From the NCBI GenBank assembly GCA_002898795.1, contig BEIG01000017.1:1-43013 (forward strand): a stretch of 43,013 bases of DNA, in the 5' to 3' direction. How positions within the stretch are numbered: position 1 is the first letter of the stretch; every line of letters starts with the position of its first letter. The stretch comes from a bacterium HR30 (GTDB lineage: Bacteria; Desulfobacterota; Binatia; HRBIN30). Of the stretch, positions 1 through 29,218 are shown one piece after another. The notes under the pieces are model-generated. The model was not told where the DNA came from. It saw only the letters and a list, made by a program, of their open reading frames with translations, and searched no databases. Made by a program: the position numbers and the translations under genes.

Positions 1-517
1 AGAGTGCTGCGTGGCGCATGCTTCGCTCGACGATCTCGGTCAGCTGCCGACGGTTACGGGTGCCGGCAGTGCGCGGTCCGTACGCCACGTTCTCGTAAAC
101 AGACTTGGGAGACGGGTTCGACTTCTGGAACACCATACCAACCCGCTTCCGCAGCGCGGTAACGTCGAGCCGCGGATCGTAAATATCCAGACCATCGAGT
201 TTGATCGTGCCTCGAATCTGTACGCCGTCCACCAAGTCGTTCAAGCGATTCAAGCAGCGCAGCAGGGTAGATTTGCCGCATCCTGACGGGCCAATGAAGG
301 CCGTGACCTGGTGGCGGGCGATATCCAAGCTGATGTCCTGCAAGACCCAGTGATGCCCATCGTACGTGAGCGCCAGGTCGCGGATGCTCAAAACCGCATC
401 CTGAATGGCCAGCGGCTGTTCGCGCTCGCGCACGCGATCCACCACGTCCAACTCGTCCTGCCGCAGTGCACGGCCCAGCGGCAACGCAAATGGGACACCG
501 GCCACGGGAGTGGTCAT
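1..517 (-). CDS. pstB: Phosphate ABC transporter ATP-binding protein PstB (C-terminal part outside window)
   Basis: This is the ATPase that powers inner-membrane phosphate import by PstSCAB. The first 172 residues are visible. Walker A (GPSGCGKST) lies at about residues 76-84 and the Q-loop glutamine near 131 sits in [14 protein letters not shown], a PstB-type Q-loop. The signature motif, Walker B and H-loop lie beyond base 1. There are roughly 45 residues ahead of the ABC core, a longer N-terminus than the compact 250-260-residue PstB. The ATG at 517 follows GGAG about 8 nt upstream and starts 9 nt after the pstA stop, so it is the last visible gene of the porin-pstSCAB operon. Identity is secure from motif, order and neighbours. 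Whether phoU follows cannot be seen. Confidence 0.95.
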
Positions 518-6931: not shown

Positions 6932-6959
6932 ATGATGAAATTGTTACAAAATCGTGAAA
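6932..6959 (-). promoter_or_regulatory. PhoB-box-like triple repeat ahead of porin-pstSCAB
   Basis: Read on the minus strand, three 11-bp units follow one another: TTTCACGATTT (half-site at 6954-6959), TGTAACAATTT (6943-6948) and CATCATGCTCT (6932-6937). The 11-bp period and TTTCAC/TGTAAC half-sites match the layout of enterobacterial Pho boxes, which are 11-bp direct repeats of a CTGTCAT-type core bound by tandem PhoB monomers. The site lies about 70 bp upstream of the porin start, inside the 123-bp gap after the tonB operon. No convincing -10 element was identified. Confidence 0.72.
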
Positions 6960-6989: not shown

Positions 6990-7391
6990 CTATCGCGATT
7001 CCCAGCTCGCCTTAGCGGGCGCCAGGCCACACCGCCGCGTGTCCAGCTTGTACCCGACCCCGCGCACCGTAACAATTGCCGCCCCAGCCCCTTTGCGTCC
7101 GCCTAGGTGTTCGCGCAGCCGTCGGATGTGGACGTCGATCGTTCGTTCCTCTACTGCGCCTTCGTCGCCCCAGATTGCCGCGATGATTTCCTCTCGTCTG
7201 AGCACGCGGTTTGGATTTCGCAGCAAGAGAACCAGGATTTCGAACTCGCGTAGGTACACGCGGACTGGCTCCCCCTTCACGGTAATTTCGTACGCATCGA
7301 GGTCAGCACAGATCCAACCACACTCCAGCACTCGCCGCTTCTTTTCCGGCATCTGCTCGAGCCCCCAACCTTCGACCCACGAGCGCCGCAT
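6990..7391 (-). CDS. Receiver-less PhoB-like winged-helix DNA-binding protein
   Basis: A 133-residue protein that is essentially one OmpR/PhoB-type winged-helix domain (about residues 20-117) with no receiver domain. The recognition helix ERTIDVHIRRLREHL and the wing IVTVRGVGYKLD keep the PhoB-type pattern, including residues equivalent to those I recall as DNA contacts in E. coli PhoB (here R83, H88, R91, R93, T108, R110). It is the last gene of the tonB-exbB-exbD-exbD operon and starts next to the second exbD stop. The ATG at 7391 is 12 nt from GGAGGG. A TTG at 7400 is an alternative. Without a phospho-acceptor it cannot answer a histidine kinase directly. It could bind Pho boxes constitutively or compete with PhoB. 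No receiver remnant precedes it. Confidence 0.85.
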   Translation of the reverse strand: MRRSWVEGWGLEQMPEKKRRVLECGWICADLDAYEITVKGEPVRVYLREFEILVLLLRNPNRVLRREEIIAAIWGDEGAVEERTIDVHIRRLREHLGGRKGAGAAIVTVRGVGYKLDTRRCGLAPAKASWESR

Positions 7392-7396
7392 GGTGC

Positions 7397-7831
7397 TCAA
7401 GAGCCCTCCGCTCCCAAAGGTTTCGTCAAGGGAGCAATCGTAACCGCCCCAGCCTCGCGCGCGAGGTCCATGGCTTCGACCACGTGCTGGTAAGGCACAG
7501 CGTCGACCGCAGACACGAACAAAACATGGTCACTGCGCGCGGCAAACATTCTCGGAAGTCTCTGAAGAAACTCTTCTTTCGTCAGCGTCACGCCATTGAT
7601 CTCGAACTCTCCGCCAGCGCCAATGCGTAGCACCAAAGGGGCTTCGTTTTCGTCGGGTTGAGTGACCTCCACCTTCTCCTGTTTTGGCGTGTGCACCCAG
7701 AACTTGCGGTCCAGCAACGGCGTCACCACCATGAAAATAATCAGCAACACGAGCACCACATCCACCAGAGGTGTCACGTTGATCGTGGGCGCGGCGCTTT
7801 TTCCGTGCGGGGCTTTCACCTGCATGGCCAC
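7397..7831 (-). CDS. exbD: ExbD-family biopolymer transport protein (second copy)
   Basis: Inner-membrane component of the TonB-ExbB-ExbD proton channel that energises outer-membrane receptors. It is 144 residues with a short cytoplasmic N-terminus and one membrane helix carrying the essential Asp in TPLVDVVLVLLIIFMVV. A periplasmic ExbD domain follows (FEINGVTLTKEEFLQRL and the ALD-like stretch after it). A GTG at 7831, 8 nt from GGAGG, is the likely start, with an in-frame ATG two codons later. It starts 3 nt after the first exbD. Two different ExbDs in one operon resemble the Xanthomonas arrangement. They may form a mixed dimer or serve different receptors. Confidence 0.92.
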   Translation of the reverse strand: MAMQVKAPHGKSAAPTINVTPLVDVVLVLLIIFMVVTPLLDRKFWVHTPKQEKVEVTQPDENEAPLVLRIGAGGEFEINGVTLTKEEFLQRLPRMFAARSDHVLFVSAVDAVPYQHVVEAMDLAREAGAVTIAPLTKPLGAEGS

Positions 7832-7834
7832 GCG

Positions 7835-8284
7835 TCATCCCTCCTCGCGGCTACCATCAGCACCCCGTCGGCGTTCGTTCACCAGTAGGGAAGCTCCTGG
7901 GTAGCCAGCGTTTTGTACTTCGGCCAGCACCGTACGGACTTCTCCCCATTGCAGGCCAGCATCGGCTCGCACCACGACGCGTCGGTTCGGATCTGCCTGG
8001 CGGAGCCCAAAAAGCAAGTCTTTCAACGCCTCGCGCTCGACCGCCTGTTCGCCCACGAAAATTTCACCCGAACGCACCACCGTAACCGACCACGGATCCA
8101 ACCCCTGCTTTTGCTCTGGGTCCGCCTGCCGCACCCGTGGCAACTCAACTGGCCGTTGTTGCTGCATCTGGGGAACAACCACCATGAAGATGATGAGCAG
8201 CACTAGCACCACATCGACGAGCGGCGTCACGTTAATTTCGGGCTCGACCGCGGCGTAGCGACCGCGGAGGACTTGCCGTCTCAT
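7835..8284 (-). CDS. exbD: ExbD-family biopolymer transport protein (first copy)
   Basis: First of two ExbD subunits in this operon, 149 residues. The membrane helix contains the protonatable Asp (NVTPLVDVVLVLLIIFMVV), preceded by a basic N-terminus (MRRQVLRGRY) and followed by a periplasmic domain with VVVRADAGLQWGEVRTVL, the usual ExbD/TolR strand-helix signature. The ATG at 8284 overlaps the exbB stop as ATGA, so translation is coupled. ExbD and TolR are close relatives. The adjacent tonB gene and absence of tolA, tolB or pal favour ExbD. The periplasmic part differs clearly from the second copy, so this is not a recent duplication. Confidence 0.92.
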   Translation of the reverse strand: MRRQVLRGRYAAVEPEINVTPLVDVVLVLLIIFMVVVPQMQQQRPVELPRVRQADPEQKQGLDPWSVTVVRSGEIFVGEQAVEREALKDLLFGLRQADPNRRVVVRADAGLQWGEVRTVLAEVQNAGYPGASLLVNERRRGADGSREEG

Positions 8285-9045
8285 GCCAACGCCCCCGCCC
8301 CCACAGCCACCTTGCCCGACCCATTGGCAGGCGCGAGGCTCTCCACTGGTTCGTGCGTGCCTGCGGCAAAGAGCTTGCCGGATTCCTCTAAGTCTTCCAT
8401 TTGATCCAGCAGCTCTCCAACTGCATTTTTCAGCCGCATCTCTTCTGCATTTGCTTTTGCGGACAGAAAATTAAACGCCAACACCGCTGGGATGGCCACG
8501 GTCAGGCCTAACGCGGTCTCGACCAGCGCTTCCGAAATTCCACCGGCCACTGCCGAAAGCCCCCCGCTGCCAGTATCGGCAATTCCCTGGAATGCGGAAA
8601 TGATCCCCAGCACCGTACCCAGCAACCCGACAAAAGGAGCAATCGAACCCACTGCAGCAAGCACGGTAAAGCCACGGCGCAATTCTGCGCCCACCTGTTC
8701 GAGGTAGCGCTCCATGTGCCGCTGGGTCTTCTCGAGCGGCGACAAGCCGCCGGCGTGATGTTGCAGCGCGTGCAAGTAAGTGTCGAGACCAACGCCCATG
8801 ACCCGAGCCAAGTGCGCGCGGGGAAATTCCTTACTTTTCTCCGCCACGGCTCGTAAGTTCCCTGCGGCTCGCAACCTGCCCACAGAGGCCAAGAATCGAC
8901 GCGAAGAGTAGCGCGAAAGAGTGAACATCAGGACCCGCTCGAGAAAAACCACCAGAGAGGCAAAGCCCATTGCGAGCAGCGTTGCCGCCACAACCAGAGC
9001 CGGAAGCCCCATGTGTTGCCAAAGCTCTTGCCAGGTAAATTGCAT
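8281..9045 (-). CDS. exbB: ExbB/TolQ-family proton channel subunit
   Basis: Forms the pentameric proton-conducting scaffold around ExbD. At 254 residues it has a first membrane helix (about 14-35), a cytoplasmic helical region, and two C-terminal helices with family signatures (VGSIAPFVGLLGTVLGIISAF, then GISEALVETALGLTVAIPAVL). A Glu/Asp-rich cytoplasmic tail follows. The ATG at 9045 has GGAGG about 6 nt upstream and lies 18 nt after the tonB stop. It is transcribed with tonB and two exbD genes and probably shares their phosphate-starvation control. TolQ is the alternative family name, but the operon partner is TonB. Confidence 0.93.
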   Translation of the reverse strand: MQFTWQELWQHMGLPALVVAATLLAMGFASLVVFLERVLMFTLSRYSSRRFLASVGRLRAAGNLRAVAEKSKEFPRAHLARVMGVGLDTYLHALQHHAGGLSPLEKTQRHMERYLEQVGAELRRGFTVLAAVGSIAPFVGLLGTVLGIISAFQGIADTGSGGLSAVAGGISEALVETALGLTVAIPAVLAFNFLSAKANAEEMRLKNAVGELLDQMEDLEESGKLFAAGTHEPVESLAPANGSGKVAVGAGALA

Positions 9046-9063
9046 TTCTCCTCCTTCGTAGGC

Positions 9064-9819
9064 TTACGCTTGCAACTTGAACGGAATTTGAATGATGCGG
9101 TACACGGTAATTGGCTTCCCTTGATACATCGCTGGCTTGTACTTCCAGCCACGCACCGCGGCGATCGCAGCCGACGCAAACGGCTCGCCTCCTCGCAAAA
9201 GTTCCACCTCGCGAACCGATCCATCGGTCGCAATCACCACCTTCAGCACCACCAACCCCGTTCGGCCTTCCGCACGCGCCTCCTGCGGGTAGGCCGGTGG
9301 CCGATTGCTGGGCAACGGCACCGGCGGCTCCGCATCTTCTGGTAACGCAATCGGTGCAGCCACTTGCGCCCCCGCCACACCCCCTTCCAGACCTGCAGGG
9401 TCGCCGCCCGCAGCCGCGTCGCCCACAACTGCCACCCCTTTGTCTTCCGATGGATCCGCCTCCGGCACAGCCTCTTTCGGCATCTCCTTCGGGGCGACCA
9501 GCGGTTTCGGAGGAGGGGCCGACTCGACTTTCCTCACCTTCAGGCGCTTCGGAACCACTGGTGCCGCTGCTGGTGGCATCGGTGGCGCGGCTACTTGCGG
9601 TTCAGGCTGGGGCTTTGGCTGGACCAACTCCCGAAAGGTGACCTCCTGTGGCTTTTCCCTTTCCCCACGGGGCGGAGCAACCGCCGACATTCGTAACACG
9701 GCCACCACGATCAAACCGTAAAACGCGACTGCCAGGACCGCCGAAACCCACCAGTTTCCCCGCGGGCCGCGCTCATCATCGTAACCCCAGTTGGTGTCCC
9801 AATTCACTGCTGGCACCAT
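9064..9819 (-). CDS. tonB: TonB energy-transducing protein
   Basis: Spans the periplasm and pulls on the TonB box of outer-membrane receptors. About 251 residues: one N-terminal membrane helix (VSAVLAVAFYGLIVVAVL, about 23-42), a proline/lysine-rich spacer (about 60-150 with repeated KPQPEP- and PPKP-type stretches) and a C-terminal TonB domain (RPPAYPQEARAEGRTGLVVL, GWKYKPAMYQGKPI). The ATG at 9819 is chosen. GTG and TTG codons lie 1 and 3 codons upstream, with only a weak ribosome site. It is the first gene of a five-gene operon led by a Pho-box-like triple repeat. The obvious client is the TonB-dependent receptor at 14187-16946. Confidence 0.93.
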   Translation of the reverse strand: MVPAVNWDTNWGYDDERGPRGNWWVSAVLAVAFYGLIVVAVLRMSAVAPPRGEREKPQEVTFRELVQPKPQPEPQVAAPPMPPAAAPVVPKRLKVRKVESAPPPKPLVAPKEMPKEAVPEADPSEDKGVAVVGDAAAGGDPAGLEGGVAGAQVAAPIALPEDAEPPVPLPSNRPPAYPQEARAEGRTGLVVLKVVIATDGSVREVELLRGGEPFASAAIAAVRGWKYKPAMYQGKPITVYRIIQIPFKLQA

Positions 9820-9871
9820 CACGACCAATCCACTTACTTGGCCAAGGATGGCACGCGTTTCCTACGGAACA

Positions 9872-9899
9872 GTGAACGGCAGGTTACGAAATGTTGAAA
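9872..9899 (-). promoter_or_regulatory. PhoB-box-like triple repeat ahead of tonB
   Basis: On the minus strand three 11-bp units run TTTCAACATTT (half-site 9894-9899), CGTAACCTGCC (9883-9888) and GTTCACTGTTC (9872-9877). Phase and half-site type match the sites before the porin and the receptor gene. The site ends about 52 bp upstream of the tonB ATG, a plausible promoter distance. PhoB boxes are direct repeats with this 11-bp period. Binding here is inferred. Confidence 0.7.
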
Positions 9900-9920
9900 C
9901 ATTGGGGCCTTTTGTGCGAG

Positions 9921-9934
9921 CCGGCGCTCGCCGG
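9921..9934 (-). terminator. Short GC hairpin after the lipoprotein gene, possible terminator
   Basis: Directly after the lipoprotein stop on the minus strand, CCGGCG and CGCCGG can pair around a 2-nt centre (or CCGGC/GCCGG around 4 nt). No T-run follows, so an intrinsic terminator is only suggested. The hairpin separates the leftward secreted-protein operon from the tonB promoter. Confidence 0.35.
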
Positions 9935-9936
9935 AC

Positions 9937-10488
9937 CTAATCAGCGAAGTAGGAAAGCATCTTCACCTTGTCCTCGAACACGACCACACTTCCCGGGCGC
10001 AACTCCACCTCGGCACCACCACCGTCGCGGAACAAGAGGCGAGGGTTCCGGTACAATGTGTACCCCGCGCGCTCCTCTGGCTGAGGCAAGTCCACACCTT
10101 GAAACTCGAGCGACCCGAGGGGACAGGCGGCCAGCAGCGCGCTCAGCGCATAGATGCTCTTGGTTCGATGGAGCCGCGTAAAAAAGTCCGCTTTCCGCTC
10201 CGGCATCGCTACCCATTGCTCGCCGGGTGGCACCGACCCGGGCAAGATCCTGGTGCGATACTCCTCATCGGAGACTGCCAAGCGTTCCAGCGTCTCCCGG
10301 TCCTGTCGGCAGAGGGCAGCCGCAACCTCGCGCAACAATGCCTCGGCTCTCACCCGACTTTGCCCCGTGCTCGACTGGGCGCCAGCAGCGTCCGTGGAAC
10401 TACGAGCCTCGGTACGGGGGCAGCCTGCCACTGCCAGGGCAAACACCCCGGCCAGCAACAAGAAACAGACTCTGGCTTTTCTGTGCAT
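9937..10488 (-). CDS. Putative lipoprotein of unknown function
   Basis: 183 residues with a lipoprotein signal: basic MHRKAR start, hydrophobic core and lipobox VAGC (Cys at about 22), then a Ser/Thr-rich tether. The mature domain contains an Arg/Glu-rich helix (LLREVAAALCRQDRETLERLAV), then mixed alpha/beta sequence ending in strands (VELRPGSVVVFEDKVKML). I do not recognise the family. The helix-then-barrel pattern recalls NTF2-like or SnoaL-like folds but is not diagnostic. The ATG at 10488 has GGGAG 9 nt upstream. The ATG three codons earlier has its ribosome site too close. It is the third gene of the leftward operon that starts at the divergent Pho-box region, so it may be a surface or periplasmic part of the same system. 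Confidence 0.8.
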   Translation of the reverse strand: MHRKARVCFLLLAGVFALAVAGCPRTEARSSTDAAGAQSSTGQSRVRAEALLREVAAALCRQDRETLERLAVSDEEYRTRILPGSVPPGEQWVAMPERKADFFTRLHRTKSIYALSALLAACPLGSLEFQGVDLPQPEERAGYTLYRNPRLLFRDGGGAEVELRPGSVVVFEDKVKMLSYFAD

Positions 10489-10518
10489 CGTTCTCATCTC
10501 CCTGCCGCAAAAGAACCG

Positions 10519-10552
10519 GCGGTGGGCACCTGAAGGCACCCACCACCGGTGG
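10519..10552 (-). other. Stem-loop between beta-helix and lipoprotein genes
   Basis: The 84-bp gap between the two genes holds an inverted repeat, GGTGGG...CCCACC, with inner pairs CC/GG around a TGAA loop and two unpaired positions. There is no clear T-run. It could be an attenuator or an mRNA-stability element that sets lipoprotein expression. Position is approximate. Confidence 0.35.
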
Positions 10553-10572
10553 CACCAGCAACATTTGGGCGG

Positions 10573-12312
10573 CTACTGCGTTACGTAGCTAATCCAACCT
10601 CCAGGCGTGACCAGCCAATTGCTGCCATTCGGGTCGAACGCACCGACGTAGGTTGCGCTGTCAAAGAACGGATCGCCAAATTGCACTCCGCAGTCCACGC
10701 CACCCGACACAGCGGAGGCAATTCCCGGTCGCGGGTCCACGACTGCTGGGGAAGGGAACGAACCTCCGGTGCTCAAGCCAGGATCCGCTGTCGAAACCTC
10801 ACCAGCGCTTTGCAAGAGGCTCATGTACTCGCACGAGTTGCACCGCGAGCCTGTGTTTCCCGATCCCGTACGGTTGCGACACAGTTCCGTGCCTCCCGTG
10901 CCGTTGTTGAAAAGCACCAAGCGATGATGCCGCAAAACCGGTGCGGTACCGCCGAGGCTAAAGGGCGGTGCGTCGCACGCCGTAACCCCATCGGTCCGCG
11001 GGTTGCCGCCGACCAGACAAGTACCAGAGCAAGCGTGCTCCCCTGTGGCAGCATCCCGAAGCTGCAAAGCTGCGTCGTCCATCGCGGTGACGAGGATGTT
11101 GGCCAATTGGCCCCCCGTGCCACGACGGTGGAAGAGCCCAAAGAAATCTCCGGAGGGGTGTCCCGACTGCCCTTTCGCCCCGACCAAGGTCACGTTGCAG
11201 AACCGCGGGTCGGAAACCGGTGTGGCGGTAAAGTTGTTTTCGTTATTGTCACTCTCGAAGCCGTGGCTACCCGCGGTATCCAAATTGCCAGCATACTGAG
11301 CTGCCAAGGCGAACTGCACTTTCGACTGGGTTCCAAGTTGCCAGTCCAGTTGATCATCCGCGTTCGCAGTCGCCACGAGGTACTTGGAATGATTCGTGCC
11401 ACCGAACCATTCGAAACCGTCGTCCTTGCCCATGTGAGCCTGAATCCAATCGAACTGCGTGCAGCTTCCCAATGCGTTCATGGTCCAGACGTTCAGTTCG
11501 TTGTCTGGCGATAGCTCTCTGCCTGCGAACTCTGCCCGAACGTACCGCGCTAAACCGCTACTTTCGTTGGGCTGGGGAGTGGCCCCGCCGCCGAAGGTAA
11601 CGCCCACCAGTCCTTCCGGAGTTCCGCTTCCTCCGGGCAAGTTGACAATGGAGCAGCCTTGGAACGACACACCGCCCCAGTCGCCTGCCTGGCGGGATCC
11701 TACCGGCTGATCCGAGGTAAAGACGATTGGCGAACTGGGAGTACCCGCCGCGTTGATGCGGGCGGTGAAGGGGTTTTCGTCGCTACAGTCCCCTTGCAAG
11801 AAAACCAATGCAGAAGGGCTGCCGTCGGACGAAACCTTGCGGCCCTTGATGACCGCCCCAGGGCGGATGGTCACCACGTTTCCGGGCTGCACGAACACCG
11901 TGCCATCGAGGAAATACTCGCAGCTACCCAGCACGACGTTGCTGGTGATATCCGCGGAAATCGTCGTGCCGCACGGCAGGACGGGTCCCGGGCTCGAGCA
12001 CATGGGGACAACGTTGCGGTTGCAGCCAGGGCTGGTCTCGTTCAGCACAATGACGGCGTCGTTGATGTTGAGCACCCCGTCCAAGTTGACGTCAGCGCAG
12101 TTCAAGATGCCAGCGCCACCGCAAGCCGAGCTACACGCTGATGCTGCGGGGTTGTTGATGCACGTGAGCATCAACGAGACGTCGGCCAGGGTAATGCCCC
12201 CTCCGTTCGGATCACCGGTGCAGGCGGCTCGCGCGGGCACACTCGCCGACCCTAAAGCCACGGTTGTGCCGAAAGCCACCGTTAACCACCAAACAAATCC
12301 TTTCCGCTTCAT
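10573..12312 (-). CDS. Secreted beta-helix-like protein with N-terminal dockerin-like repeats
   Basis: 579 residues with a signal peptide (MKRKGFVWWLTVAF...ARA). Two dockerin-like calcium loops follow at once: GDPNGGGITLADVSLML and ADVNLDGVLNINDAVIVL, each flanked by Cys. From about residue 105 the protein matches a family I remember mainly from Bacteroidetes, often encoded beside TonB receptors. Its hallmarks are GTVFVQPGNVVTIRPGAVIKG, GDWGGVSFQG, ARYVRAEFAGREL, DGFEWFGGTNHSK and GFESDNNENNF. Repeated short strands suggest a right-handed beta-helix. Catalytic activity is unknown. The ATG at 12312 has AAGGAG 9 nt upstream, which excludes an in-frame upstream extension. It is the second gene of the leftward operon, 41 bp after the cohesin-like gene. 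A phosphorus-related surface role is inference from context. Confidence 0.85.
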   Translation of the reverse strand: MKRKGFVWWLTVAFGTTVALGSASVPARAACTGDPNGGGITLADVSLMLTCINNPAASACSSACGGAGILNCADVNLDGVLNINDAVIVLNETSPGCNRNVVPMCSSPGPVLPCGTTISADITSNVVLGSCEYFLDGTVFVQPGNVVTIRPGAVIKGRKVSSDGSPSALVFLQGDCSDENPFTARINAAGTPSSPIVFTSDQPVGSRQAGDWGGVSFQGCSIVNLPGGSGTPEGLVGVTFGGGATPQPNESSGLARYVRAEFAGRELSPDNELNVWTMNALGSCTQFDWIQAHMGKDDGFEWFGGTNHSKYLVATANADDQLDWQLGTQSKVQFALAAQYAGNLDTAGSHGFESDNNENNFTATPVSDPRFCNVTLVGAKGQSGHPSGDFFGLFHRRGTGGQLANILVTAMDDAALQLRDAATGEHACSGTCLVGGNPRTDGVTACDAPPFSLGGTAPVLRHHRLVLFNNGTGGTELCRNRTGSGNTGSRCNSCEYMSLLQSAGEVSTADPGLSTGGSFPSPAVVDPRPGIASAVSGGVDCGVQFGDPFFDSATYVGAFDPNGSNWLVTPGGWISYVTQ

Positions 12313-12353
12313 AGACGTGATCTCCTTTTTCTGGTTGTCTTCGTTCGCCGTGG

Positions 12354-13775
12354 TCACGGTTCCGTAATCGTGACGGAACAGCTCACCCCATCGACCGGGT
12401 TACCGCTGGGGTCGGATGCCGATTCGACCTCACACGTCGTCAAGGCAAACTGCGACAGGCATGACTCTGTTGCCGGACAGTCGGCATCCGTCGAGCAGTT
12501 GATCCACTGACTCACACTGCAGGAACGCCCCTGGGCGATGCACTTCTCGCCGCACGTGCCATTGCCGACACATTGAGCGTCCGAGGTACACGAGGTAACC
12601 CCGTCGCCCGTGCACTTGTTTTGCGGCGCACAGGTCGGACAAGCGGGCGCGCGACACTCATTGGCCGACGAGCACGCCTGCGTCGTGGTGACGCTGCATA
12701 AACCCACCGGGTACGCCGGCCGGCAAACATCGAACTTCACGCTCGCCAAAAGGCCCGACGAAATGCCGGAGCTGTCGAGGGCGGAGATTCGCAAGGCATC
12801 GTCGAGATCGAACGCATCGAGAAATGCCGCCGAGTAAGTGAACCGCCCCGCGATATCGATGTTGCTGCCATTTTCATCCACACCCGCGTCGAAACGGGGA
12901 TACCGCACGAGCACTGTGACGCCGCCCAGCGGAACCGGAGTCTGCAAGTTGACATTGACCGTGCGGGCGTTCGGGCTTGGGGTCCCCTTGGTGCAATTTT
13001 CCCCTGGGTAAGCGATGGTCGCCAGACTTTTCCCCTCAGCCAACGCAGCCTCGGCAACGCAGTCGGGCAAAGGATCGCAACTGCCCACTTGCGCGCCCGT
13101 CAAACCAGTGCAGGCTGCTTGGATGGCCGTTTTTCGGCCATTGATGAAACTGAGTAACGGAGCATCGTTCAGACAGGCGTTACTCAGAGGCGAGCCCGGC
13201 GATTGCGTTTTCTGGCACTGGATGGCGGTGTTCATCATTTTATCGGCAATCGCCCGCCGCGCAGACGAAATGACCTTAAAGCACTTGAGCTTGGCCGGAT
13301 CGTTTCCAAGGACAGCGTTTCCAAGAAGTCTGTCGGCTCGCTCCGACACGATAGAACGCAGCGAGGGCAGCTTGTTCGATGTGCTGTCGCCGGGGAGCAT
13401 GTCCGTGGCGGCAGCCGCCGCTGGCTGCGGGCATTTACCCGTCGGACCGTGCAGTTTGGCCAGCGCCTTTTGCTCCGCCTGTTGGTACTTCCCTCCATTG
13501 ATGATCGTAAACGGAAACCCCTCGATGTTGTTGCACAGCCCGCCGGGTACGCCCACCTTCTGTGCAAGCTGATGGCACTTCTCTTGACCTAACGCTGCGG
13601 CTTTGCCCAAGCCGCGAGTTTCCAACCCTACCGCGGCGTAGCACTTGGGCGCGTCTTGACCGCGCACACTTGAGGGCCCCACACTCACGAGCGCTGCGGC
13701 AATCGGCACCGCAAAAAACGCCCGCCCCCATCGTAACTTTTGCCAGAGAGTCACTTCATTGCTTGGTCGCACCAT
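12354..13775 (-). CDS. Secreted Cys-rich protein with cohesin-like domain
   Basis: 473 residues, first gene of the leftward operon. A signal peptide (to about residue 39) precedes a helical Cys-containing region (about 45-260, CYAAVGLETRGLGKAAALGQ...) that I do not recognise. A beta-sandwich segment (about 280-370) then reads VNVNLQTPVPLGGVTVLVRY...LLASVKFDVCRP, which looks cohesin-like. A run of Cys-rich repeats of CxxDxxC type (CSSANEC, CTSDAQC, CSTDADC) follows, and the end is DGVSCSVTITEP. The secreted gene at 16964 ends almost the same way (AGVTCSVTTP), so the two share a C-terminal module. The ATG at 13775 has GGAGG 5 nt upstream. The upstream in-frame extension lies across the promoter and is rejected. 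Confidence 0.85.
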   Translation of the reverse strand: MVRPSNEVTLWQKLRWGRAFFAVPIAAALVSVGPSSVRGQDAPKCYAAVGLETRGLGKAAALGQEKCHQLAQKVGVPGGLCNNIEGFPFTIINGGKYQQAEQKALAKLHGPTGKCPQPAAAAATDMLPGDSTSNKLPSLRSIVSERADRLLGNAVLGNDPAKLKCFKVISSARRAIADKMMNTAIQCQKTQSPGSPLSNACLNDAPLLSFINGRKTAIQAACTGLTGAQVGSCDPLPDCVAEAALAEGKSLATIAYPGENCTKGTPSPNARTVNVNLQTPVPLGGVTVLVRYPRFDAGVDENGSNIDIAGRFTYSAAFLDAFDLDDALRISALDSSGISSGLLASVKFDVCRPAYPVGLCSVTTTQACSSANECRAPACPTCAPQNKCTGDGVTSCTSDAQCVGNGTCGEKCIAQGRSCSVSQWINCSTDADCPATESCLSQFALTTCEVESASDPSGNPVDGVSCSVTITEP

Positions 13776-14004
13776 AAAAACCTCCATTGCACGACTTCGT
13801 TTTCCGTTTTCTTTGTTGACCGCCTCGCACCAGAGGCGTTCCCACGTGAGCCAAAACTTTCGTTCCGACTTCAGCCTGCTGCATTTTCCGCCCTCATTGT
13901 CTCTCCCTCCTCTCGCGAGCCTCCAATTCGCTTGCCTGGCCGAGGAGCCGGCTCGCAGCACTCCCCAAAGGCCTTCACACGGCCCCGGAGTGTACGCGGG
14001 CAAC

Positions 14005-14032
14005 GTGAACGGTCGGTCACGAGATCGCGAAC
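14005..14032 (-). promoter_or_regulatory. PhoB-box-like triple repeat for the leftward secreted-protein operon
   Basis: Minus-strand half-sites with 11-bp period are GTTCGC (14027-14032), CGTGAC (14016-14021) and GTTCAC (14005-14010). The middle one is the weakest match. The final unit is one arm of a 13-bp inverted repeat whose other arm lies in the rightward box. It lies about 230 bp upstream of the 13775 start, so a long leader would result. Confidence 0.55.
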
Positions 14033-14058
14033 TTTTCGCGAAATCCGTGCGTGCGAAG

Positions 14059-14086
14059 TTTCACCGACCGTTCACATTCGTGTAAC
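14059..14086 (+). promoter_or_regulatory. PhoB-box-like triple repeat for the TonB-receptor operon
   Basis: Plus-strand half-sites at exact 11-bp spacing are TTTCAC (14059-14064), GTTCAC (14070-14075) and TGTAAC (14081-14086). These are the best-preserved repeats of the four sites seen and lie about 100 bp upstream of the receptor ATG. A matching -10 element was not evident. Confidence 0.72.
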
Positions 14087-14186
14087 GTCCGCCCAACACG
14101 CCGGTGCTTTTCACGGGCGCGTGATTCGGACCCGGCTTAACGTGTTGACTCTTCGCGCTCCCCACTGGTTGCACGTGTGGCGAGCG

Positions 14187-16946
14187 ATGTTCGCTCTCCT
14201 CCTGTGCATCTTGCCGGTCACCGCCAGCGCTCAGGCAGCGACCGGGAAATTGCGAGGAGTTGTTCGCGACCAACAAACGAAAGAGGCCGTCATCGACGCG
14301 GGAGTGGAAGTGGTGGGCACGGGAAAGCAAACGCGCACCGATTTAGACGGCCGCTTCGAGTTTACCTTGCCTGCGGGCAGCTACGAGCTGAGGGTGTTCG
14401 CCCCCTTTTACCAAAGCGTGCGCGTGCACAACCTCCGCGTCAAACCTGGCGAGACCACGGAAACCACCGTGGAACTGCGTGGCGAAGGAGAAGCCGCAAC
14501 GGAAACCGTCGAGGTGGTTGCTCGCGCCGAACGTGGAAGTGCCCGTGTGCAGCTCGAGCTCCGACGCGAAGCCGTCAGCGTTACGGAAAACATCAGTGCG
14601 CAGGAAATTCGCGCAAGCCCGGATTCCGACGCTGGTGAAATTGTCCAACGGTTGCCTGCCGTGGTCGTCAAGGACGACAAGTACATCAATGTACGCGGTT
14701 TGAACGAGCGTTACTCTGCCGCACGCTTACAGGGCAGTCGGCTCCCGAGTACGGACCCAGAGCGGCGCGTTGTCCCACTCGACTTATTTCCGGCAGAGTT
14801 CATCGAATCCATTTCGCTGGTGAAGACATTTCAGCCGGATTTGCCCGGGGATTTTTCCGGCGCGCTGGCGGATATTTTCCTCAAATCGTTTCCCGAGCAA
14901 ACCTCCTTCAGCGTCGGCCTCCAGTCTGGAGTGAACACCAACGCTACCTTCAAAACCTTCGATACCTATCGTGCGGCGGGGCCAGCCGACTATTTTGGCC
15001 TCGGGGAACACTTCCGGCGCCTGCCAGATGCGATTCCCGACCGCGCCGCCGACGTCAACAGCACCCCAGCTCGCGCTCAGGCGTTTGCTCGGGCTTTCGA
15101 CAATATTTGGGAACCGTCGCACATTTCGGCGCCGCCCAACCTGGGTTGGAACTTTTCCGGAGGGGGAAGCTGGGGCGCTTTGGGCCTAAGCATCGCGGGC
15201 CTCTACCGAACCGAGTACAAGCGGCAGAATCTTTTCACCTCCAACGTGCTGTTCGCGGGAGATCGCGCCGAATTCGCCGACCGGTTCGACCATCGTGCGA
15301 GCACGTTCGACGTACGCCTCGGTGGGCTTCTGAACGCGGGGTACCGCATCGGCGATGGCCACAACCTTTTTTTCCGGGCGCTCGTGAACCGCAATGCGAC
15401 GGACGAAACGCGCCGATCGATCGGTGTAGAAGATTCCACGGCTCACATCCTGGCGTTCACCCGGTTCAAGTACACGGTCGACACCCTAGCCTTTGGCCAG
15501 CTCGGCGGAGAACACCGCCTCGGACCTTTCGAAACGCGCTGGCGCACGGCATACGGCTATACCACGCAAGATCAGCCCGATGGCCGGCTGCAGACACGGG
15601 ACCTAAGCGAAGGGAACATTTTCACCAACAACAACTTTGGTGGCCGGCGTTTGTTCGGTTCTCTGGAGGAACGACTGACGGACTCGGCCATCGATTTCAC
15701 GTCGCGTCTACCCAAACCAGCCGCCTTGATTCCTGCAGAGCCCGTGCTTCGGTTCGGGCCTGCCTACGCATTCCGCGAGCGCGACCAGGGGCTCAGGCAG
15801 TTCATTTTCGACGTCAAAGACGTTCCCGAACTCCAGCCCCTTCCGACGGAGAAAATTTTCGCTCCCCAGAATTTCCGGCCGAATCCCTTCAATCGTGGCG
15901 TCAGCTTCCGGGAGGAAAGCAAACCTCGCGACTCCTTTACTGCCCAAGAAGAGGTGCTCGCTGGCTACGCCATGCTCGAACTCCCCGTTTTCCAGAGCTC
16001 TGCCGGTCTTCACGAAGTGACCATGTTCGGCGGGGCTCGGACCGAGTACTGGCACCTGAAAGAACGCTTCTTTGGCGCGAACAACAAACCGGTTCCGTTG
16101 CGGAAAACCGAAGTGGATCCACTTCCTGCCATGGGGCTCCGCTACCGGCCTGTAGCGAATATGAACCTCCGCCTATCGTGGAGCGAGACTCTCACCCGGC
16201 CCGATTTGCGCGAGCTTTCCCCCACCCAGTATCCAGAGCAAGGATCGCTGGAGACCAAAGCGGGCGACCCCACCCTCCGAACTGCCTCGATCCAAAATTA
16301 CGACTTTCGCTGGGAGTGGTTTGTGGGTGGCGACGAACTGATCTCTGCCAGCCTGTTTTACAAGGACTTCACCAACCCCATCGAACAGGTGATTTTTTAC
16401 GAGGGATCGAATCGCGTCTTCAAGCCGCGCAACGCGCTCAGCGCCAAGGTGTTCGGCTGGGAGATCGAAACACGGGCGTCCTTGAGTCGAGCCTGGAATC
16501 GCCTCGATGGCTTGTTCTTCCTCACAAATGTCACATGGGCCGACTCCGAAGCGAAAATCCTTCAAGACTCGGGGCAAGTGCGCTCGCGCCGTTTGCAAGG
16601 GCAGGCTCCCTTCATCGTCAACGCTGGTTTGAGCTACCGCCACTCGCGTTGGGGGGAGCTGCGCCTACTTTACAACACCGCGGATCGCCGAGTCGAAGCG
16701 GCTGGGCCTCCAGACTCCGATCCGCTGACGGGTCGCCCCCTGATTCCCGAGGTATACGAAGAGCGGCGCGACCAACTCGATGCGGCGTATCTGACCAAGG
16801 CAGAGGTTTTCTCCGTTCCCGTGCAAATCAAACTCACCGCAGAAAATCTTCTCAACGACCAATACGTGTTCACGCAAGCCGACCTCGTTCAAAAGCGCTT
16901 CACCACCGGGGTGAAATGTTCGCTCAGCCTCACCTACGCGTTTTGA
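14187..16946 (+). CDS. TonB-dependent outer-membrane receptor with CarboxypepD-regulatory-like N-terminus
   Basis: Large outer-membrane gated channel of about 919 residues. After a signal peptide (ALLLCILPVTASAQ) comes a carboxypeptidase-regulatory-like beta domain (about 20-100, GKLRGVVRDQQTKEAVIDAG, TDLDGRFEFTLPAGSYELRV). A plug domain follows (about 120-245, GEIVQRLPAVVVKDDKYINV, RLQGSRLPSTDPERRVVPL) and then a long barrel ending SLSLTYAF with terminal Phe. Barrel landmarks include LRLSWSETLTRPDLRELSP near the end. The ATG at 14187 is used, but GTG codons at 14175 and 14142 would add an Arg-containing n-region and neither choice has a strong ribosome site. It heads a four-gene operon and is the natural partner of the nearby TonB-ExbBDD. 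The ligand is unknown; a phosphorus compound is inferred from the Pho boxes. Confidence 0.92.
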   Translation: MFALLLCILPVTASAQAATGKLRGVVRDQQTKEAVIDAGVEVVGTGKQTRTDLDGRFEFTLPAGSYELRVFAPFYQSVRVHNLRVKPGETTETTVELRGEGEAATETVEVVARAERGSARVQLELRREAVSVTENISAQEIRASPDSDAGEIVQRLPAVVVKDDKYINVRGLNERYSAARLQGSRLPSTDPERRVVPLDLFPAEFIESISLVKTFQPDLPGDFSGALADIFLKSFPEQTSFSVGLQSGVNTNATFKTFDTYRAAGPADYFGLGEHFRRLPDAIPDRAADVNSTPARAQAFARAFDNIWEPSHISAPPNLGWNFSGGGSWGALGLSIAGLYRTEYKRQNLFTSNVLFAGDRAEFADRFDHRASTFDVRLGGLLNAGYRIGDGHNLFFRALVNRNATDETRRSIGVEDSTAHILAFTRFKYTVDTLAFGQLGGEHRLGPFETRWRTAYGYTTQDQPDGRLQTRDLSEGNIFTNNNFGGRRLFGSLEERLTDSAIDFTSRLPKPAALIPAEPVLRFGPAYAFRERDQGLRQFIFDVKDVPELQPLPTEKIFAPQNFRPNPFNRGVSFREESKPRDSFTAQEEVLAGYAMLELPVFQSSAGLHEVTMFGGARTEYWHLKERFFGANNKPVPLRKTEVDPLPAMGLRYRPVANMNLRLSWSETLTRPDLRELSPTQYPEQGSLETKAGDPTLRTASIQNYDFRWEWFVGGDELISASLFYKDFTNPIEQVIFYEGSNRVFKPRNALSAKVFGWEIETRASLSRAWNRLDGLFFLTNVTWADSEAKILQDSGQVRSRRLQGQAPFIVNAGLSYRHSRWGELRLLYNTADRRVEAAGPPDSDPLTGRPLIPEVYEERRDQLDAAYLTKAEVFSVPVQIKLTAENLLNDQYVFTQADLVQKRFTTGVKCSLSLTYAF

Positions 16947-16963
16947 AGACCCGGAGGACCACC

Positions 16964-17902
16964 ATGTCGTGCAACAACCGAATGTTGCGACCCCTGCTCG
17001 TAGCTGCCCTGAACCTTTGGGGCATGGCCACTCTAGCTTGCCCTGGCGACTGCAACGGCTCCGGCACACTCACGGCCGGCGACCTCACCCGCATGGTCGC
17101 CATTGTGTTGCGTTGCGATGGCGATCCAAACGGGTGCACCGCTGTTCCTGGCTCGTGCCCCAATGGGGACTTCAATGGCAACGGGCGCATTGACGTGGGC
17201 GACCTCATCGCTGCCATCGATCAACTCCTCGCTTACACGACTGGCTGCCCGCCGACGCCAACGCCAACTCCTACGGTAACCGCAACCTTCACTCCGAGCC
17301 CTTTGGCCACGGCCACGCTTGTTCCTTCCCCTTCGCCTTCGGCGACCCCACGACCCCCGAGCCCTACCCATACGGCTTCACCCAGTCCGACACCGTCGTT
17401 CACTCCCGCCCTGGCCATTTGTGGCAACGGTGTCGTGGAAGCTCCGGAAACGTGCGACGATGGCAACACCGTTACCAACCCACCGCAAGATACCTGCCCG
17501 GCCGACTGCACTATTCTCACCTGTAGCCCATCGGCCAACCGCGCGGAGGTTGCCGTGAGCTTTTCGAGCCCGCGGGGTGTCGCTTCGATTGCTGTTCTGG
17601 TCGAATACCCCGACGGCAACGTACAGCTTCCCGGAACGGGCGATGACCCGAGTGTGGCAGCACGCGTCGTGGGCCGTCCCAGCGGGTTTTTAGCGACCGT
17701 TTTCGATTTCGATTACGCACTCCGGGTTGGGCTTGCTGGGACACGGGCACTGAGCGGAACACAGTTGTTCCGCATCCAGTTCGATCTTTGCCGCGACACA
17801 TCCAACCCGCCCGCGGCGAGTTACCGCTGTCGGGTGATCGAAGCGAACGACACTAATTTCCAACCCATCGCGGGCGTTACCTGCAGTGTGACAACGCCTT
17901 GA
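16964..17902 (+). CDS. Secreted dockerin-like/cohesin-like mosaic protein with Pro-Thr linker
   Basis: 312 residues. The signal peptide ends around LACPGDC. Two dockerin-like loops come first (GDCNGSGTLTAGDLTRMV and GDFNGNGRIDVGDLIAAI, about 26-90). A Pro/Ser/Thr linker follows (about 97-155), then one Myxococcus-type Cys repeat (CGNGVVEAPETCDDGN). The C-terminal cohesin-like beta-sandwich (about 195-312) contains GVASIAVLVEYPDGNVQLPG and LFRIQFDLCRD and ends AGVTCSVTTP. The ATG at 16964 has CGGAGG 6 nt upstream and lies 17 nt after the receptor stop, so it is co-transcribed. Dockerin and cohesin are the pairing modules of cellulosomes. Whether these bind each other is untested. No catalytic domain is visible. 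Confidence 0.85.
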   Translation: MSCNNRMLRPLLVAALNLWGMATLACPGDCNGSGTLTAGDLTRMVAIVLRCDGDPNGCTAVPGSCPNGDFNGNGRIDVGDLIAAIDQLLAYTTGCPPTPTPTPTVTATFTPSPLATATLVPSPSPSATPRPPSPTHTASPSPTPSFTPALAICGNGVVEAPETCDDGNTVTNPPQDTCPADCTILTCSPSANRAEVAVSFSSPRGVASIAVLVEYPDGNVQLPGTGDDPSVAARVVGRPSGFLATVFDFDYALRVGLAGTRALSGTQLFRIQFDLCRDTSNPPAASYRCRVIEANDTNFQPIAGVTCSVTTP

Positions 17903-17950
17903 GGGGAAACGAGAAAACCAAAGACCGCGGAAGAGGAAAGGAGACAGACA

Positions 17951-18619
17951 ATGAAATCGTTGGGCCAAACGATACCCGTGTGGTTGTTCGTCTACGCCCT
18001 CGCTACCGCGCCCAGCGCGGCGGCCGCTGTTTGCGTGGGCGATTGCAATGGCGATCGCGAGGTAACCATCGACGAACTGGTCACGATGGTGAATATCGCT
18101 CTTGGCACGCAACCGGTGGCAGGCTGTTTGGCTGGGGATGCCAATAACGACGGCGAGGTGACGATCGAGGAAATCGTCACAGGTGTCAACCATGCCCTCA
18201 GCGGCTGTCCACCGTCAGAGGCTTGCACCGAGGCCATTGCCACCATCGCGCTCAGCTTCGATCTCAACCAAGTGCCGAACCTTGCGGGACTTACTCTCGA
18301 CTTGACCTACCCCGCCCAGCTCGTCAGCCTCCCCGCGGCGGAGCAACTGGCGGAACGTTTGCTCGATGTGAGCGATGCAGGGGGCTTTTTCGATGCACAA
18401 GTCGTTTCCGGAAACGGTTCCGCAGAGCCCACGCTGCGCGTGTCGTACCTCACGCCAGGGCAAATTCAGCCAGGACCCCTCCTCGAGGTAACCTTCGACT
18501 GTATTTCCACCACCCCACCAGCAGAAACGCAATTTCCGTGCGTTGTCCGCCAAGCCTCCGACGGCGGGGGTTTCAACGTGCAGGGCGTCACATGCCAAGT
18601 AGTTCTCGATGTGGAGTGA
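17951..18619 (+). CDS. Secreted dockerin-like/cohesin-like protein
   Basis: 222 residues. The signal peptide ends near SAAAAVC. It is followed by two well-formed dockerin-like loops with Asp/Asn ligands and a helix after each (GDCNGDREVTIDELVTMVNI and GDANNDGEVTIEEIVTGVNH, about 33-88). The remaining 130 residues are a cohesin-like beta-sandwich (ATIALSFDLNQVPNLAGLTL, LDLTYPAQLVSLP, GPLLEVTFDCI) ending VQGVTCQVVLDVE, related to the ends of the 16964 and 13775 proteins. There is no Pro-Thr linker. The ATG has AAGGAG 8 nt upstream, 48 nt after the previous gene. It is the simplest member of the family here and the best candidate for testing calcium-dependent pairing. Confidence 0.85.
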   Translation: MKSLGQTIPVWLFVYALATAPSAAAAVCVGDCNGDREVTIDELVTMVNIALGTQPVAGCLAGDANNDGEVTIEEIVTGVNHALSGCPPSEACTEAIATIALSFDLNQVPNLAGLTLDLTYPAQLVSLPAAEQLAERLLDVSDAGGFFDAQVVSGNGSAEPTLRVSYLTPGQIQPGPLLEVTFDCISTTPPAETQFPCVVRQASDGGGFNVQGVTCQVVLDVE

Positions 18620-18665
18620 GAACAAGGCGGGCCGGCGTTGCGGCAAATCGATGAGGGTCCAGGCA

Positions 18666-19208
18666 ATGACTCCGTTCGCTCCGTTTACCGTCGTGCTGCT
18701 CTTGACCCTGCTTCTGCCGTGGTCGGTAACCTTTCTCGTTGGCTGCGACGGCGGCAATGGCCCTGCATTCCAGCGGTGCGGAAATGGCACGCTCGATCCG
18801 GCCGAGCAATGCGACGATGGCAATCTCTACGACGATGACGATTGCTTGAGTACATGCGTACCAGCCCGTTGCGGCGACGGCTTCGTTGCAAGTTTTGGCA
18901 CGGAGTTCCCAGAGCAGTGCGATGGCGGCAATCTTGGGTCTTTCTGTCTCGACCGCCTACCGGAGCTTCGGCCCTGCCGGGAGAACAGCGATTGCCCTCG
19001 GCAGCCAGACGGGCCGTTTCTGGCAAACCCGTGTCAGCAGCCTAGCTGCGTGTCGTTTGGCCTCAGCGGTGGTCCCCTGCGATGTTCGGCCACTTGTGTT
19101 TTCGACTTGGCCAGTTGTGGCCCCCCGCCCACCCGGACGGCTACGCCGGTACCGCCGAGTCCCACCCCAACACGTACTCCGCGAATCCCGCGCACTCCAA
19201 CGCCGTAA
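18666..19208 (+). CDS. Cys-rich lipoprotein with Myxococcus-type repeats
   Basis: 180 residues. A hydrophobic N-terminus leads to the lipobox LVGC (Cys about 29). Two Cys repeats of the Myxococcus/DUF4215 type follow (CGNGTLDPAEQCDDGNLYDD and CGDGFVASFGTEFPEQCDGG), then more disulphide-type Cys pairs. The tail from about 150 is Pro/Thr/Arg-rich and ends TPTP without a further domain. In the 16964 protein a similar Pro-Thr stretch is a linker, so this one may have lost a C-terminal domain. The ATG at 18666 has GAGG 9 nt upstream. An in-frame ATG at 18651 is the alternative. It is the last gene of the receptor operon and could anchor the secreted partners to a membrane. Confidence 0.78.
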   Translation: MTPFAPFTVVLLLTLLLPWSVTFLVGCDGGNGPAFQRCGNGTLDPAEQCDDGNLYDDDDCLSTCVPARCGDGFVASFGTEFPEQCDGGNLGSFCLDRLPELRPCRENSDCPRQPDGPFLANPCQQPSCVSFGLSGGPLRCSATCVFDLASCGPPPTRTATPVPPSPTPTRTPRIPRTPTP

Positions 19209-28184: not shown

Positions 28185-28187
28185 GCT

Positions 28188-29210: not shown

Positions 29211-29218
29211 GGTGCCCC

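Follow-up and report, generated by a model that had tools for sequence, protein, structure and literature searches.

A predicted phosphate-starvation module with a dedicated TonB motor at the outer membrane of an uncultured member of the Binatia

Known systems of similar composition

The passage across the outer membrane of phosphorus compounds that are too large for porins is a poorly known process. Among the closest described counterparts of the locus considered here is ElpS (CC0170) of Caulobacter crescentus, which is encoded next to a TonB receptor and is produced under phosphate starvation and secreted, crossing the outer membrane independently of the T2SS as reported, while the receptor gene cc0171 is reported to be constitutive (data not shown) (PMC2996285). 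In the available parts of the open-access literature, no role is demonstrated for the receptor beside ElpS. In Flavobacterium johnsoniae, the PUSIV phoBR operon holds the receptor Fjoh_0545 and the lipoprotein Fjoh_0546 (IPR011050, FII), for which transcript FC values of 8.0 and 9.9 are given in phosphate depletion, the text of the paper counting in log2FC; OprP is reported not to be induced, and plant-associated Bacteroidetes are said to lack PstSABC (PMC8115612).

TonB motors with related features are known as well. The exbB2-exbD2-tonB4 set of Pseudomonas aeruginosa belongs to the PhoB/sigma-VreI regulon at low phosphate and is called uncharacterised by the authors in the passages available. 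In Xanthomonas campestris, a tonB-exbB-exbD1-exbD2 set serves iron uptake and the pectate response, exbD2 being tied to the latter and not to iron (PMC3551730). Furthermore, Oar and its Ton system are required for secretion of the PopC protease during development of Myxococcus xanthus (PMC6434023).

Gene content of the locus

The window, i.e. the whole stretch of 43,013 nucleotides that was analysed, contains the following features, with G360 denoting a genome of the same genus.

1..517, minus strand: PstB, N-terminal part (residues 1-172 of G360 PstB, 78%)
527..2152, minus strand: PstA-type permease (Pfam BPD_transp_1; purpose-built PstA HMM)
2156..4393, minus strand: PstC-type permease with a WD40-like propeller segment (Pfam; TIGR02138 PstC above cut-off, NCBIfam)
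4428..5393, minus strand: PstS phosphate-binding protein (TIGR02136 above cut-off, NCBIfam)
5427..6866, minus strand: phosphate-selective O/P-type porin, Porin_O_P (Pfam PF07396 above cut-off); start at 6866 chosen by eye for the AGGAGG ahead of the ATG
6932..6958, minus strand: Pho-box-like triple repeat of the porin-pst unit (equivalent site in G360)
6990..7400, minus strand: PhoB-like DNA-binding domain protein without receiver, wHTH (Pfam: Trans_reg_C only)
7397..7831, minus strand: second ExbD (Pfam PF02472)
7835..8284, minus strand: first ExbD (Pfam PF02472)
8281..9045, minus strand: ExbB (Pfam PF01618)
9064..9828, minus strand: TonB (Pfam PF03544, TonB_C)
9872..9898, minus strand: Pho-box-like triple repeat of the tonB unit (core 15/15 kept in G360)
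9937..10497, minus strand: small lipoprotein, lipo200 (LAVAGC lipobox in the translation)
10573..12312, minus strand: secreted right-handed beta-helix protein, elpS-like, SecBH (homologues; predicted model)
12354..13775, minus strand: secreted protein Sec549 (signal-peptide-like start, set by a GGAGG site)
14005..14031, minus strand: Pho-box-like triple repeat of the secreted-protein unit (core 15/15 kept in G360)
14060..14086, plus strand: Pho-box-like triple repeat of the receptor unit (core 15/15 kept in G360)
14121..16946, plus strand: TonB-dependent receptor with CarboxypepD_reg N-terminal domain, Plug and barrel (Pfam); start at GTG 14121 or GTG 14142
16964..17902, plus strand: secreted dockerin-like protein (translation; weak Dockerin_1 match on the longer in-frame ORF 15107-17902)
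17951..18619, plus strand: secreted dockerin-like protein (EF-hand/Dockerin_1 matches below cut-off; homologue in G360)
18609..19208, plus strand: secreted DUF4215 protein (Pfam PF13948 above cut-off; homologue in G360)

The interval that the first-pass annotation had delimited begins to the right of both the pst genes and the porin site. Two of the secreted proteins and the small lipoprotein are without a Pfam family, and the Pfam scan recognised no phosphatase, phytase or nuclease in the cluster, where several proteins belong to no family. The proposal that the receptor and the secreted proteins capture a phosphorus source whose size keeps it from passing the porin gained no support from gene content, and an alternative in terms of export, discussed below, stands beside it. 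Membership of the SusCD/PusCD systems was rejected, as no SusD (PF07980/PF14322) match was found among the cluster proteins at E≤0.01.

The TonB motor

The TonB_C protein, ExbB, the two ExbD proteins and the receptor with its plug and barrel make up, by Pfam, the set of a TonB transport system, and besides the window TonB the genome contains two further TonB_C matches. In other lineages, a DUF3450-TtpC-ExbB-ExbD-TonB layout takes the place of this motor, and the replacement of the first layout by a second speaks for the need of a motor encoded on the spot. The order tonB-exbB-exbD-exbD, with its two exbD genes, is identical to that of X. campestris, but the available passages on the latter contain no tie to pst (PMC3551730). 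The Oar system likewise combines a CarboxypepD_reg receptor with linked tonB, exbB and two exbD genes; it differs in showing no phosphate link in the passages available (PMC6434023). The P. aeruginosa set is likewise a TonB motor that belongs to a PhoB-dependent regulon of low phosphate, but is under ECF sigma factor control together with the Hxc T2SS and LapA, and no elpS-like pair appears in the passages available.

The presence in phoBR-pst clusters of a dedicated TonB motor, of which there are two layouts, is new: the P. aeruginosa case aside, nothing closer was found in the open-access literature on TonB motors with phosphate genes, and the top listings of open-access literature on Binatota contained nothing on this system. 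The first-pass annotation had credited the receptor with a TonB motor of its own, which agrees with the Pfam assignments and with the position of the operon inside the phoBR-pst cluster. It had also known of no described system of this composition, and this holds for the dedicated motor in such a cluster but not for the other parts, as the elpS/cc0171-type pair, the Flavobacterium pair and exbB2-exbD2-tonB4 are already described in the available portions of those papers.

Linkage to the phoBR-pst genes

The end of contig C18 carries a histidine kinase, a PhoB-like regulator, PhoU (phoR-phoB-phoU) and the rest of the split pstB, which matches residues 166-290 of G360 PstB at 94% in the alignment. 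In G360 the gene order is intact, with phoR-phoB-phoU-pst joined to the module, and this order is common to G360, G362, G365 and G366, apart from members missing or unannotated, while G356 contains the same parts in a rearranged cluster. The neighbourhood survey recovered the predicted linkage of these operons to pst in related genomes and in some distant ones.

Among the loci listed, at least two pst genes lie within reach in 14 of the 58 long loci (≥18 kb, 18-43 kb) versus none of 20 control stretches (20 kb, from four genomes only); the Fisher p of 0.016 ignores the kinship of these related loci. Within the size range of 18-24 kb the proportion is 9/50 among the loci listed. Linkage of receptor loci to pst or phoB occurs in several phyla. 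Conversely, 32 of these 58 listed long loci contain fewer than two pst genes and no PhoB-type regulator, and the surroundings of a Pseudoalteromonas copy include siderophore genes but no annotated pst.

The receptor and its beta-helix partner

Of 105 loci, which come from several phyla and comprise the best 80 of at least 564 matches, 21 loci of the class and four of the phylum, 100 contain a beta-helix homologue beside the receptor, in 82 cases within 500 bp of it. The HMMs used to find the families were themselves derived from the loci under study; G391a, G355, G356, G358 and L053 duplicate L060, L061, L062, L094 and L079, respectively, and were dropped, and L056, a partial match on a short contig, was left out. 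Homologues of lipo200 are found in 36 of the 105 listed receptor loci, and relatives of Sec549 are encoded beside the receptor in many loci of the Binatia. Pairs on Sphingomonas and Indioceanicola plasmids match both the beta-helix and the receptor profiles and are arranged in elpS-receptor-gsp order. By way of these pairs, the receptor and its partner are homologous to the elpS/cc0171 type; the comparison with the Caulobacter pair, likewise a secreted protein beside a TonB receptor, runs through these homologues. According to the available text, ElpS carries a lipid anchor as a lipoprotein and its gene adjoins T2SS genes, whereas SecBH has no lipobox (by eye) and no T2SS next door, none of the 30 window proteins scanned being a T2SS component. 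Unlike ElpS/CC0171 as far as described, the window pair is accompanied by a TonB motor of its own and is part of a phoBR-pst cluster. A lipobox-like pattern occurs in 27 of 103 SecBH homologues, with frame starts uncorrected. The Flavobacterium pair, matched by description alone, resembles the window in combining a receptor and a pectin-lyase-fold lipoprotein with an OprP-type porin gene and phoBR, but exbB is absent from the main text of that paper (PMC8115612). On a Marinobacter plasmid stretch, the beta-helix gene occurs without an annotated receptor.

The near-obligatory adjacency of the two genes could also be read in favour of TonB-driven export, in which the receptor with its own motor would secrete SecBH, and perhaps also the dockerin-like proteins, under phosphate starvation; we consider this unlikely, though a serious rival to import. 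Surface-partner and importer pairs of the SusCD type are equally tightly linked, which counts against the argument from adjacency. The Oar-type CarboxypepD_reg domain of the receptor, a motor composed like that of Ton-Oar (PMC6434023) and the reported T2SS independence of ElpS (PMC2996285) would fit export. However, the CarboxypepD_reg domain alone is a weak sign, as the Oar architecture is reported for 28% of TonB receptors (PMC6434023), and the related Sphingomonas receptor has no such domain by Pfam and adjoins a T2SS. In addition, GspG was found above cut-off on contig C24 of the same genome, so another export route may exist. An extended version, with phosphate-triggered TonB-driven secretion of the beta-helix partner, a receiver-less PhoB paralogue latching the response and such pairs spread over many phyla, seems quite unlikely.

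The predicted model of SecBH (pTM 0.80) adopts a right-handed beta-helix fold, as pectate lyases and polygalacturonases do, with a conserved acidic motif around D297/D298/E301/D319/D323. It aligns to beta-helix enzymes and tailspikes with Z scores of about 18-24, up to 23.6 (VIA-align 2 on Foldseek candidates), whereas Foldseek itself returned no match at E≤0.001 with this model. No Pfam or NCBIfam family was assigned to SecBH, and a solved homologue by sequence was rejected on a single weak PDB profile match (E 0.005). Enzymes acting on polysaccharides typically have beta-helix folds, and the receptor might import something other than a phosphorus source that is needed during phosphate shortage, such as a metal ion or a glycan, or act in signalling. 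The Pseudoalteromonas copy near siderophore genes and the tie of Xanthomonas exbD2, from the same layout, to the pectate response (PMC3551730) would agree with this reading, but we consider it quite unlikely; the pst/phoB linkage in several phyla and the low-phosphate response reported for similar pairs (PMC2996285, PMC8115612) speak against it.

For lipo200, the predicted model (pLDDT 81) has a single Foldseek match below 0.001, the SEC-C motif protein 2jq5 (E 6e-4); further structural matches are mostly NTF2-like, and no function was drawn from them.

Pho-box-like repeats

The porin-pst, tonB-exbB-exbD-exbD-wHTH, secreted-protein and TonB-receptor units are each preceded by a triple repeat with a period of 11 bp. 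All four sites reported in the first-pass annotation are present, although of unequal quality, as the third half-site of the porin unit is poor (CATCAT) and the first half-site of the secreted-protein unit reads TTCGC. They are the top four distinct places in the window with a half-site matrix, a circular result because the matrix was built from the same sites. In G360, the top four distinct sites of that matrix fall at the same four promoters, two of them scoring 17.5 and 17.0, below the highest of 20 shuffles (17.9). Between G360 and the window, the cores of three sites are identical at 45/45 positions compared to 22/42 in the spacers (Fisher p 2e-8).

Across the class, every one of the 19 Binatia loci covered by the test, out of 25, has a receptor-promoter site (the window and 18 others, the latter with p≤0.03 against shuffles); the class loci G369, G371 and G174 contain no site locus-wide above shuffles. 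The signal is specific for the period of 11, with a mean best score of 10.7 versus 4.5-5.2 at periods 8-10 and 12-14. Outside the Binatia, the repeat is found at p≤0.05 in 27 of 78 receptor promoters among the loci listed (about four by chance), a low share partly because some receptors lie mid-operon. The receptor-promoter test covered 97 of the 105 loci; L060, L061, L106, L117, G352, G369, G371 and G174 were left out for a short upstream region or a late profile start. Counted over the whole genome, the pattern was not over-represented relative to its reversed control (36 vs 63 with up to two mismatches, 6 vs 5 with up to one), so the evidence for the sites is positional and no wider regulon is claimed.

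Chance repeats were rejected on the basis of the G360 promoters, the conserved cores and the receptor-promoter sites of the class, and the same observations uphold the earlier assignment of the repeats to the PhoB-box architecture. The repeats and the linked phoB, phoR, phoU and pst genes fit membership of a PhoB regulon, from which we infer PhoB control.

Proposed mechanism

On balance, we favour a phosphate-starvation module of the outer membrane, driven by PhoB, in which a surface partner and a motor-driven receptor would import a phosphorus-bearing molecule and the wHTH protein would reinforce the response; this reading seems somewhat more probable than its negation. Low phosphate, sensed by Pst, PhoU and PhoR, would bring PhoB onto the four Pho boxes and thereby switch on the porin-pst unit, the dedicated TonB-ExbB-ExbD-ExbD motor, the elpS-like beta-helix protein with the small lipoprotein, and the CarboxypepD_reg-type TonB receptor with the secreted dockerin and DUF4215 proteins. 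The beta-helix protein, placed at the cell surface, would assist the receptor in capture or processing, and the receptor, powered by its own motor, would import the phosphorus-bearing molecule. The wHTH protein would probably bind the same boxes without phosphorylation and thus reinforce or prolong the response. As with PhoB control, we infer the surface location, the direction of transport, the substrate and the feedback role, and import of a phosphorus compound is the most likely of the functions considered.

The sites, the phoBR-pst linkage, the second motor layout, the predicted beta-helix fold, the PhoB-type recognition helix of the wHTH protein and the low-phosphate response of similar pairs, as reported for ElpS and Fjoh_0545/0546, support this phosphate-starvation module, while the loci without a phosphate link, the Pseudoalteromonas copy and the reports of constitutive cc0171 and uninduced OprP argue against it. 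The share of repeats outside the Binatia, the genome-wide counts, the negative Pfam result for phosphatases and phytases in the cluster and the missing lipobox of SecBH also count against it. The proposed module would join induced 'hypothetical lipoproteins' and 'orphan receptors' in one testable device, with a pair that recurs in phoBR-pst clusters, and would include the receiver-less PhoB-like protein as a candidate for feedback.

The receiver-less PhoB-like protein

The wHTH protein matches the full-length PhoB-like regulator of its own genome at 42% as well as the PhoB DNA-binding domain (1gxp/1gxq), and has a PhoB-type recognition helix. G360 has its orthologue, and G365 a counterpart that likewise lacks the receiver. 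The occurrence in such a module of a PhoB-like protein with the DNA-binding domain but no receiver is new.

This protein, rather than PhoB, might be the main regulator of the four units, in which case the module may answer to a signal other than phosphate; of the alternatives considered, we regard this as the least probable. The genomes G362, G366 and G356 contain only long-frame matches to wHTH, so apparently no receiver-less copy, but keep the boxes and have a full PhoB-type regulator beside pst, and Pfam recognised no sensor or receiver domain in the wHTH protein itself. In its favour are its PhoB-like recognition helix, its location in one of the units, and the two best matches of one genome-wide pattern search, which lie in this cluster, as does, at the receptor promoter, the only perfect match of its own genome in a second such search. 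Perfect matches to the second pattern in other genomes are found on C6 of G366 and on C44 and at C49:54989 of G356.

Gene content and regulators of the cluster

The window is contig C17 of G000, a metagenome-derived assembly of 3.73 Mb, and the cluster on it is organized as follows:

Minus strand, first block: PstB (partial), PstA, PstC, PstS and an O/P-type porin
Minus strand, second block: a receiver-less, 136-residue PhoB-type DNA-binding domain protein (wHTH protein, 6990-7400), two ExbD, ExbB and TonB
Minus strand, third block: a small lipoprotein (9937-10497), a beta-helix protein (10573-12312) and the further secreted protein Sec549 (12354-13775)
Opposite strand, divergent: a TonB receptor, which has a CarboxypepD_reg domain, plus three secreted proteins

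The PstC-type permease (2156-4393) contains a WD40-like beta-propeller segment. Ten more proteins were scanned in 22937-41861, of which eight belong to ordinary Pfam families and two to none; the families are MgsA-type AAA ATPase, FAD and FMN oxidoreductases, metallo-beta-lactamase fold, amidase, lipoyl acyltransferase, acetate kinase and MutS/Smr.

Three Trans_reg_C matches were found in the genome itself: the local wHTH protein, a full-length regulator on contig C18 and a third on C77. The end of C18 encodes a histidine kinase, the full-length regulator and PhoU. It also carries the C-terminal portion of PstB, whose N-terminal portion is in the window. The two PstB pieces share a seven-residue overlap when aligned to PstB of G360, a genome of the same genus. 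Because no exact overlap was found between the C18 and C17 ends, their join is a putative one; the inexact ends at this break (window 1-517; C18 end, L058 12437-12814) might reflect strain variation. G360 carries on one contig, in this order, the kinase, the regulator, pstB-A-C-S, the porin, the wHTH protein, exbD-exbD-exbB-tonB, the lipoprotein, the beta-helix protein and Sec549, with a PhoU-like frame between the regulator and pstB. Given this gene order, the full-length regulator on C18 is assigned by synteny as PhoB.

The receiver-less wHTH protein is a paralogue of PhoB type whose recognition helix closely resembles that of PhoB. G360 retains it, as does G365 in a more PhoB-like form; searches of G362 and G366 gave long-frame matches only. 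The DNA-binding domain of PhoB can by itself act without phosphorylation, and the receiver-less protein may have a feedback role. On contig C547 of G352, receptor and Exb genes are flanked by two PhoB-type regulators, one on each side.

Triple repeats upstream of the four units

Triple repeats with an 11-bp period precede the porin-pst, tonB, secreted-protein and receptor units. The window alone is no proof of them, as the scoring matrix was built from the same repeats. Three tests outside the window support them, and the first-pass observation of one repeat type upstream of all four units is confirmed. First, the top four distinct sites in G360 fall at the corresponding four promoters, the weaker two scoring within the shuffle range. 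Three of them match the window at 45/45 core and 22/42 spacer positions (Fisher 2e-8), and the equivalent porin site is present in rearranged form. Second, 19 of the 25 Binatia loci could be scored, the window and 18 others, and every one of these has a site upstream of the receptor at p<=0.03 against shuffles of that same region. Third, the mean repeat score over 97 loci is about twofold higher at period 11 than at six other periods. Outside Binatia, 27/78 loci have a site at p<=0.05 against about four expected. No site scored above shuffles in the Binatia loci G369, G371 and G174, and a genome-wide count revealed no over-representation of the pattern; the case for the repeats is their position and not their genome-wide number.

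GTAACA or TTAACA tends to be the half-site on the Bacteroidota side. Pho-box-like triple repeats with half-sites of this type, not TTCAC, precede the receptor in loci L068, L069, L099, L111 and L122.

Distribution and phosphate linkage

The receptor was found at E<=1e-30 in 10 of the 297 phylum genomes drawn and in 24 of 148 class genomes, own genome included in both. Of 105 loci (the best 80 of at least 564 listed, 21 from the class and four from the phylum), 100 encode the beta-helix protein and 36 the small lipoprotein. PhoB-type regulators occur in 33, TonB together with Exb proteins in 23, and two or more pst genes in 15. These 15 belong to Binatia, to G034 and G077 of the window's phylum, and to records titled Acidobacteria, Gemmatimonadaceae, Gemmatimonadales and Gemmatimonas; single PstS-like frames lie near the receptor in L087, L118 and L129 (KSB1, Kapaibacterium and Gemmatimonadota by title).

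Linkage to pst is present in related and in some more distant genomes. At least two pst genes are present in 14/58 loci of 18 kb or more (9/50 among those of 18-24 kb), compared to 0/20 in chosen 20-kb control stretches from four genomes, which also gave 0/20 for the beta-helix protein and 1/20 for a PhoB-type regulator. However, 32/58 long loci have neither two pst genes nor a PhoB-type regulator, and the pair is therefore not always tied to phosphate genes.

Several Sec549-type proteins surround the receptor in G362, G366, G356 and G092, seemingly multiplied in Binatia. In L111, L116, L124 (about 18-20 kb) and L131 (about 14-16 kb), the receptor and beta-helix genes have a Ppx/GppA-like and an HtrA-like gene downstream of them.

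The beta-helix partner and the direction of transport

The beta-helix protein matched no family in Pfam or NCBIfam. Its predicted structure (35-sequence alignment; pTM 0.80; pLDDT>=90 at 291/579 residues) is a right-handed parallel beta-helix, for which VIA-align 2 gave Z 18-24 against tailspikes, alginate epimerases, pectate lyase and polygalacturonases; Foldseek alone returned nothing below 0.001. A conserved acidic motif may serve in binding or catalysis.

The partner would work outside the cell, and the receptor would take in a phosphorus compound, powered by the local motor; taken whole, this statement is modestly favoured. The main rival is export, whereby the receptor and its motor would secrete the partner across the outer membrane. 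PopC secretion in Myxococcus xanthus is reported to require Oar and a Ton system of the same composition (PMC6434023), the window receptor shares its N-terminal domain with Oar, and ElpS is reported to cross the outer membrane independently of T2SS (PMC2996285). The adjacency of receptor and partner (within 500 bp in 82/100 loci of the set that includes the best 80 of at least 564 listed) is compatible with import and export alike. The phosphate-starvation uptake module proposed in the first-pass annotation is partly supported: its own motor and the pst linkage stand, phoR-phoB-phoU are linked as well and the predicted PhoB control is very probable, with phosphorus import the most likely function and export its main competitor.

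Comparison with known systems

By tblastn against plasmids, the partner was found in Sphingomonas and Indioceanicola, adjoining receptor and gsp genes, and the receptor and partner profiles used here match both proteins of the pair there. This order is that described for Caulobacter cc0170(elpS)-cc0171-T2SS. For Caulobacter, ElpS is reported to be made under phosphate starvation and cc0171 as constitutive (PMC2996285), and several TonB receptors as PhoB-controlled (PMC11208175). The Flavobacterium johnsoniae phoBR operon is described as encoding OprP along with a TonB transporter and lipoprotein FII (IPR011050); the transporter and the lipoprotein are strongly induced and OprP is not, and FI-FIII are described as similar to the Caulobacter lipoprotein (PMC8115612). 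Pseudomonas aeruginosa exbB2-exbD2-tonB4, called uncharacterised, is assigned to a PhoB-dependent regulon (PMC7035377). The separate parts are therefore of known kinds, which narrows the earlier statement that no described system of this composition is known to its author: what appears new is the assembly of the pair with a motor of its own and a regulator lacking a receiver, all within a phoBR-pst cluster, for which no published match was found in the literature searched.

Two motor layouts occur: tonB-exbB-exbD-exbD in the window, G360, G092, G038 and L082, and DUF3450-TtpC-ExbB-ExbD-TonB in G356, G358, G034, G071 and L063. In the Pseudoalteromonas plasmid locus L208, DUF3450-TtpC-ExbB-ExbD-TonB-TPR forms an uninterrupted series with the beta-helix protein and the receptor; pst is absent from it, and siderophore genes lie a few kb away.
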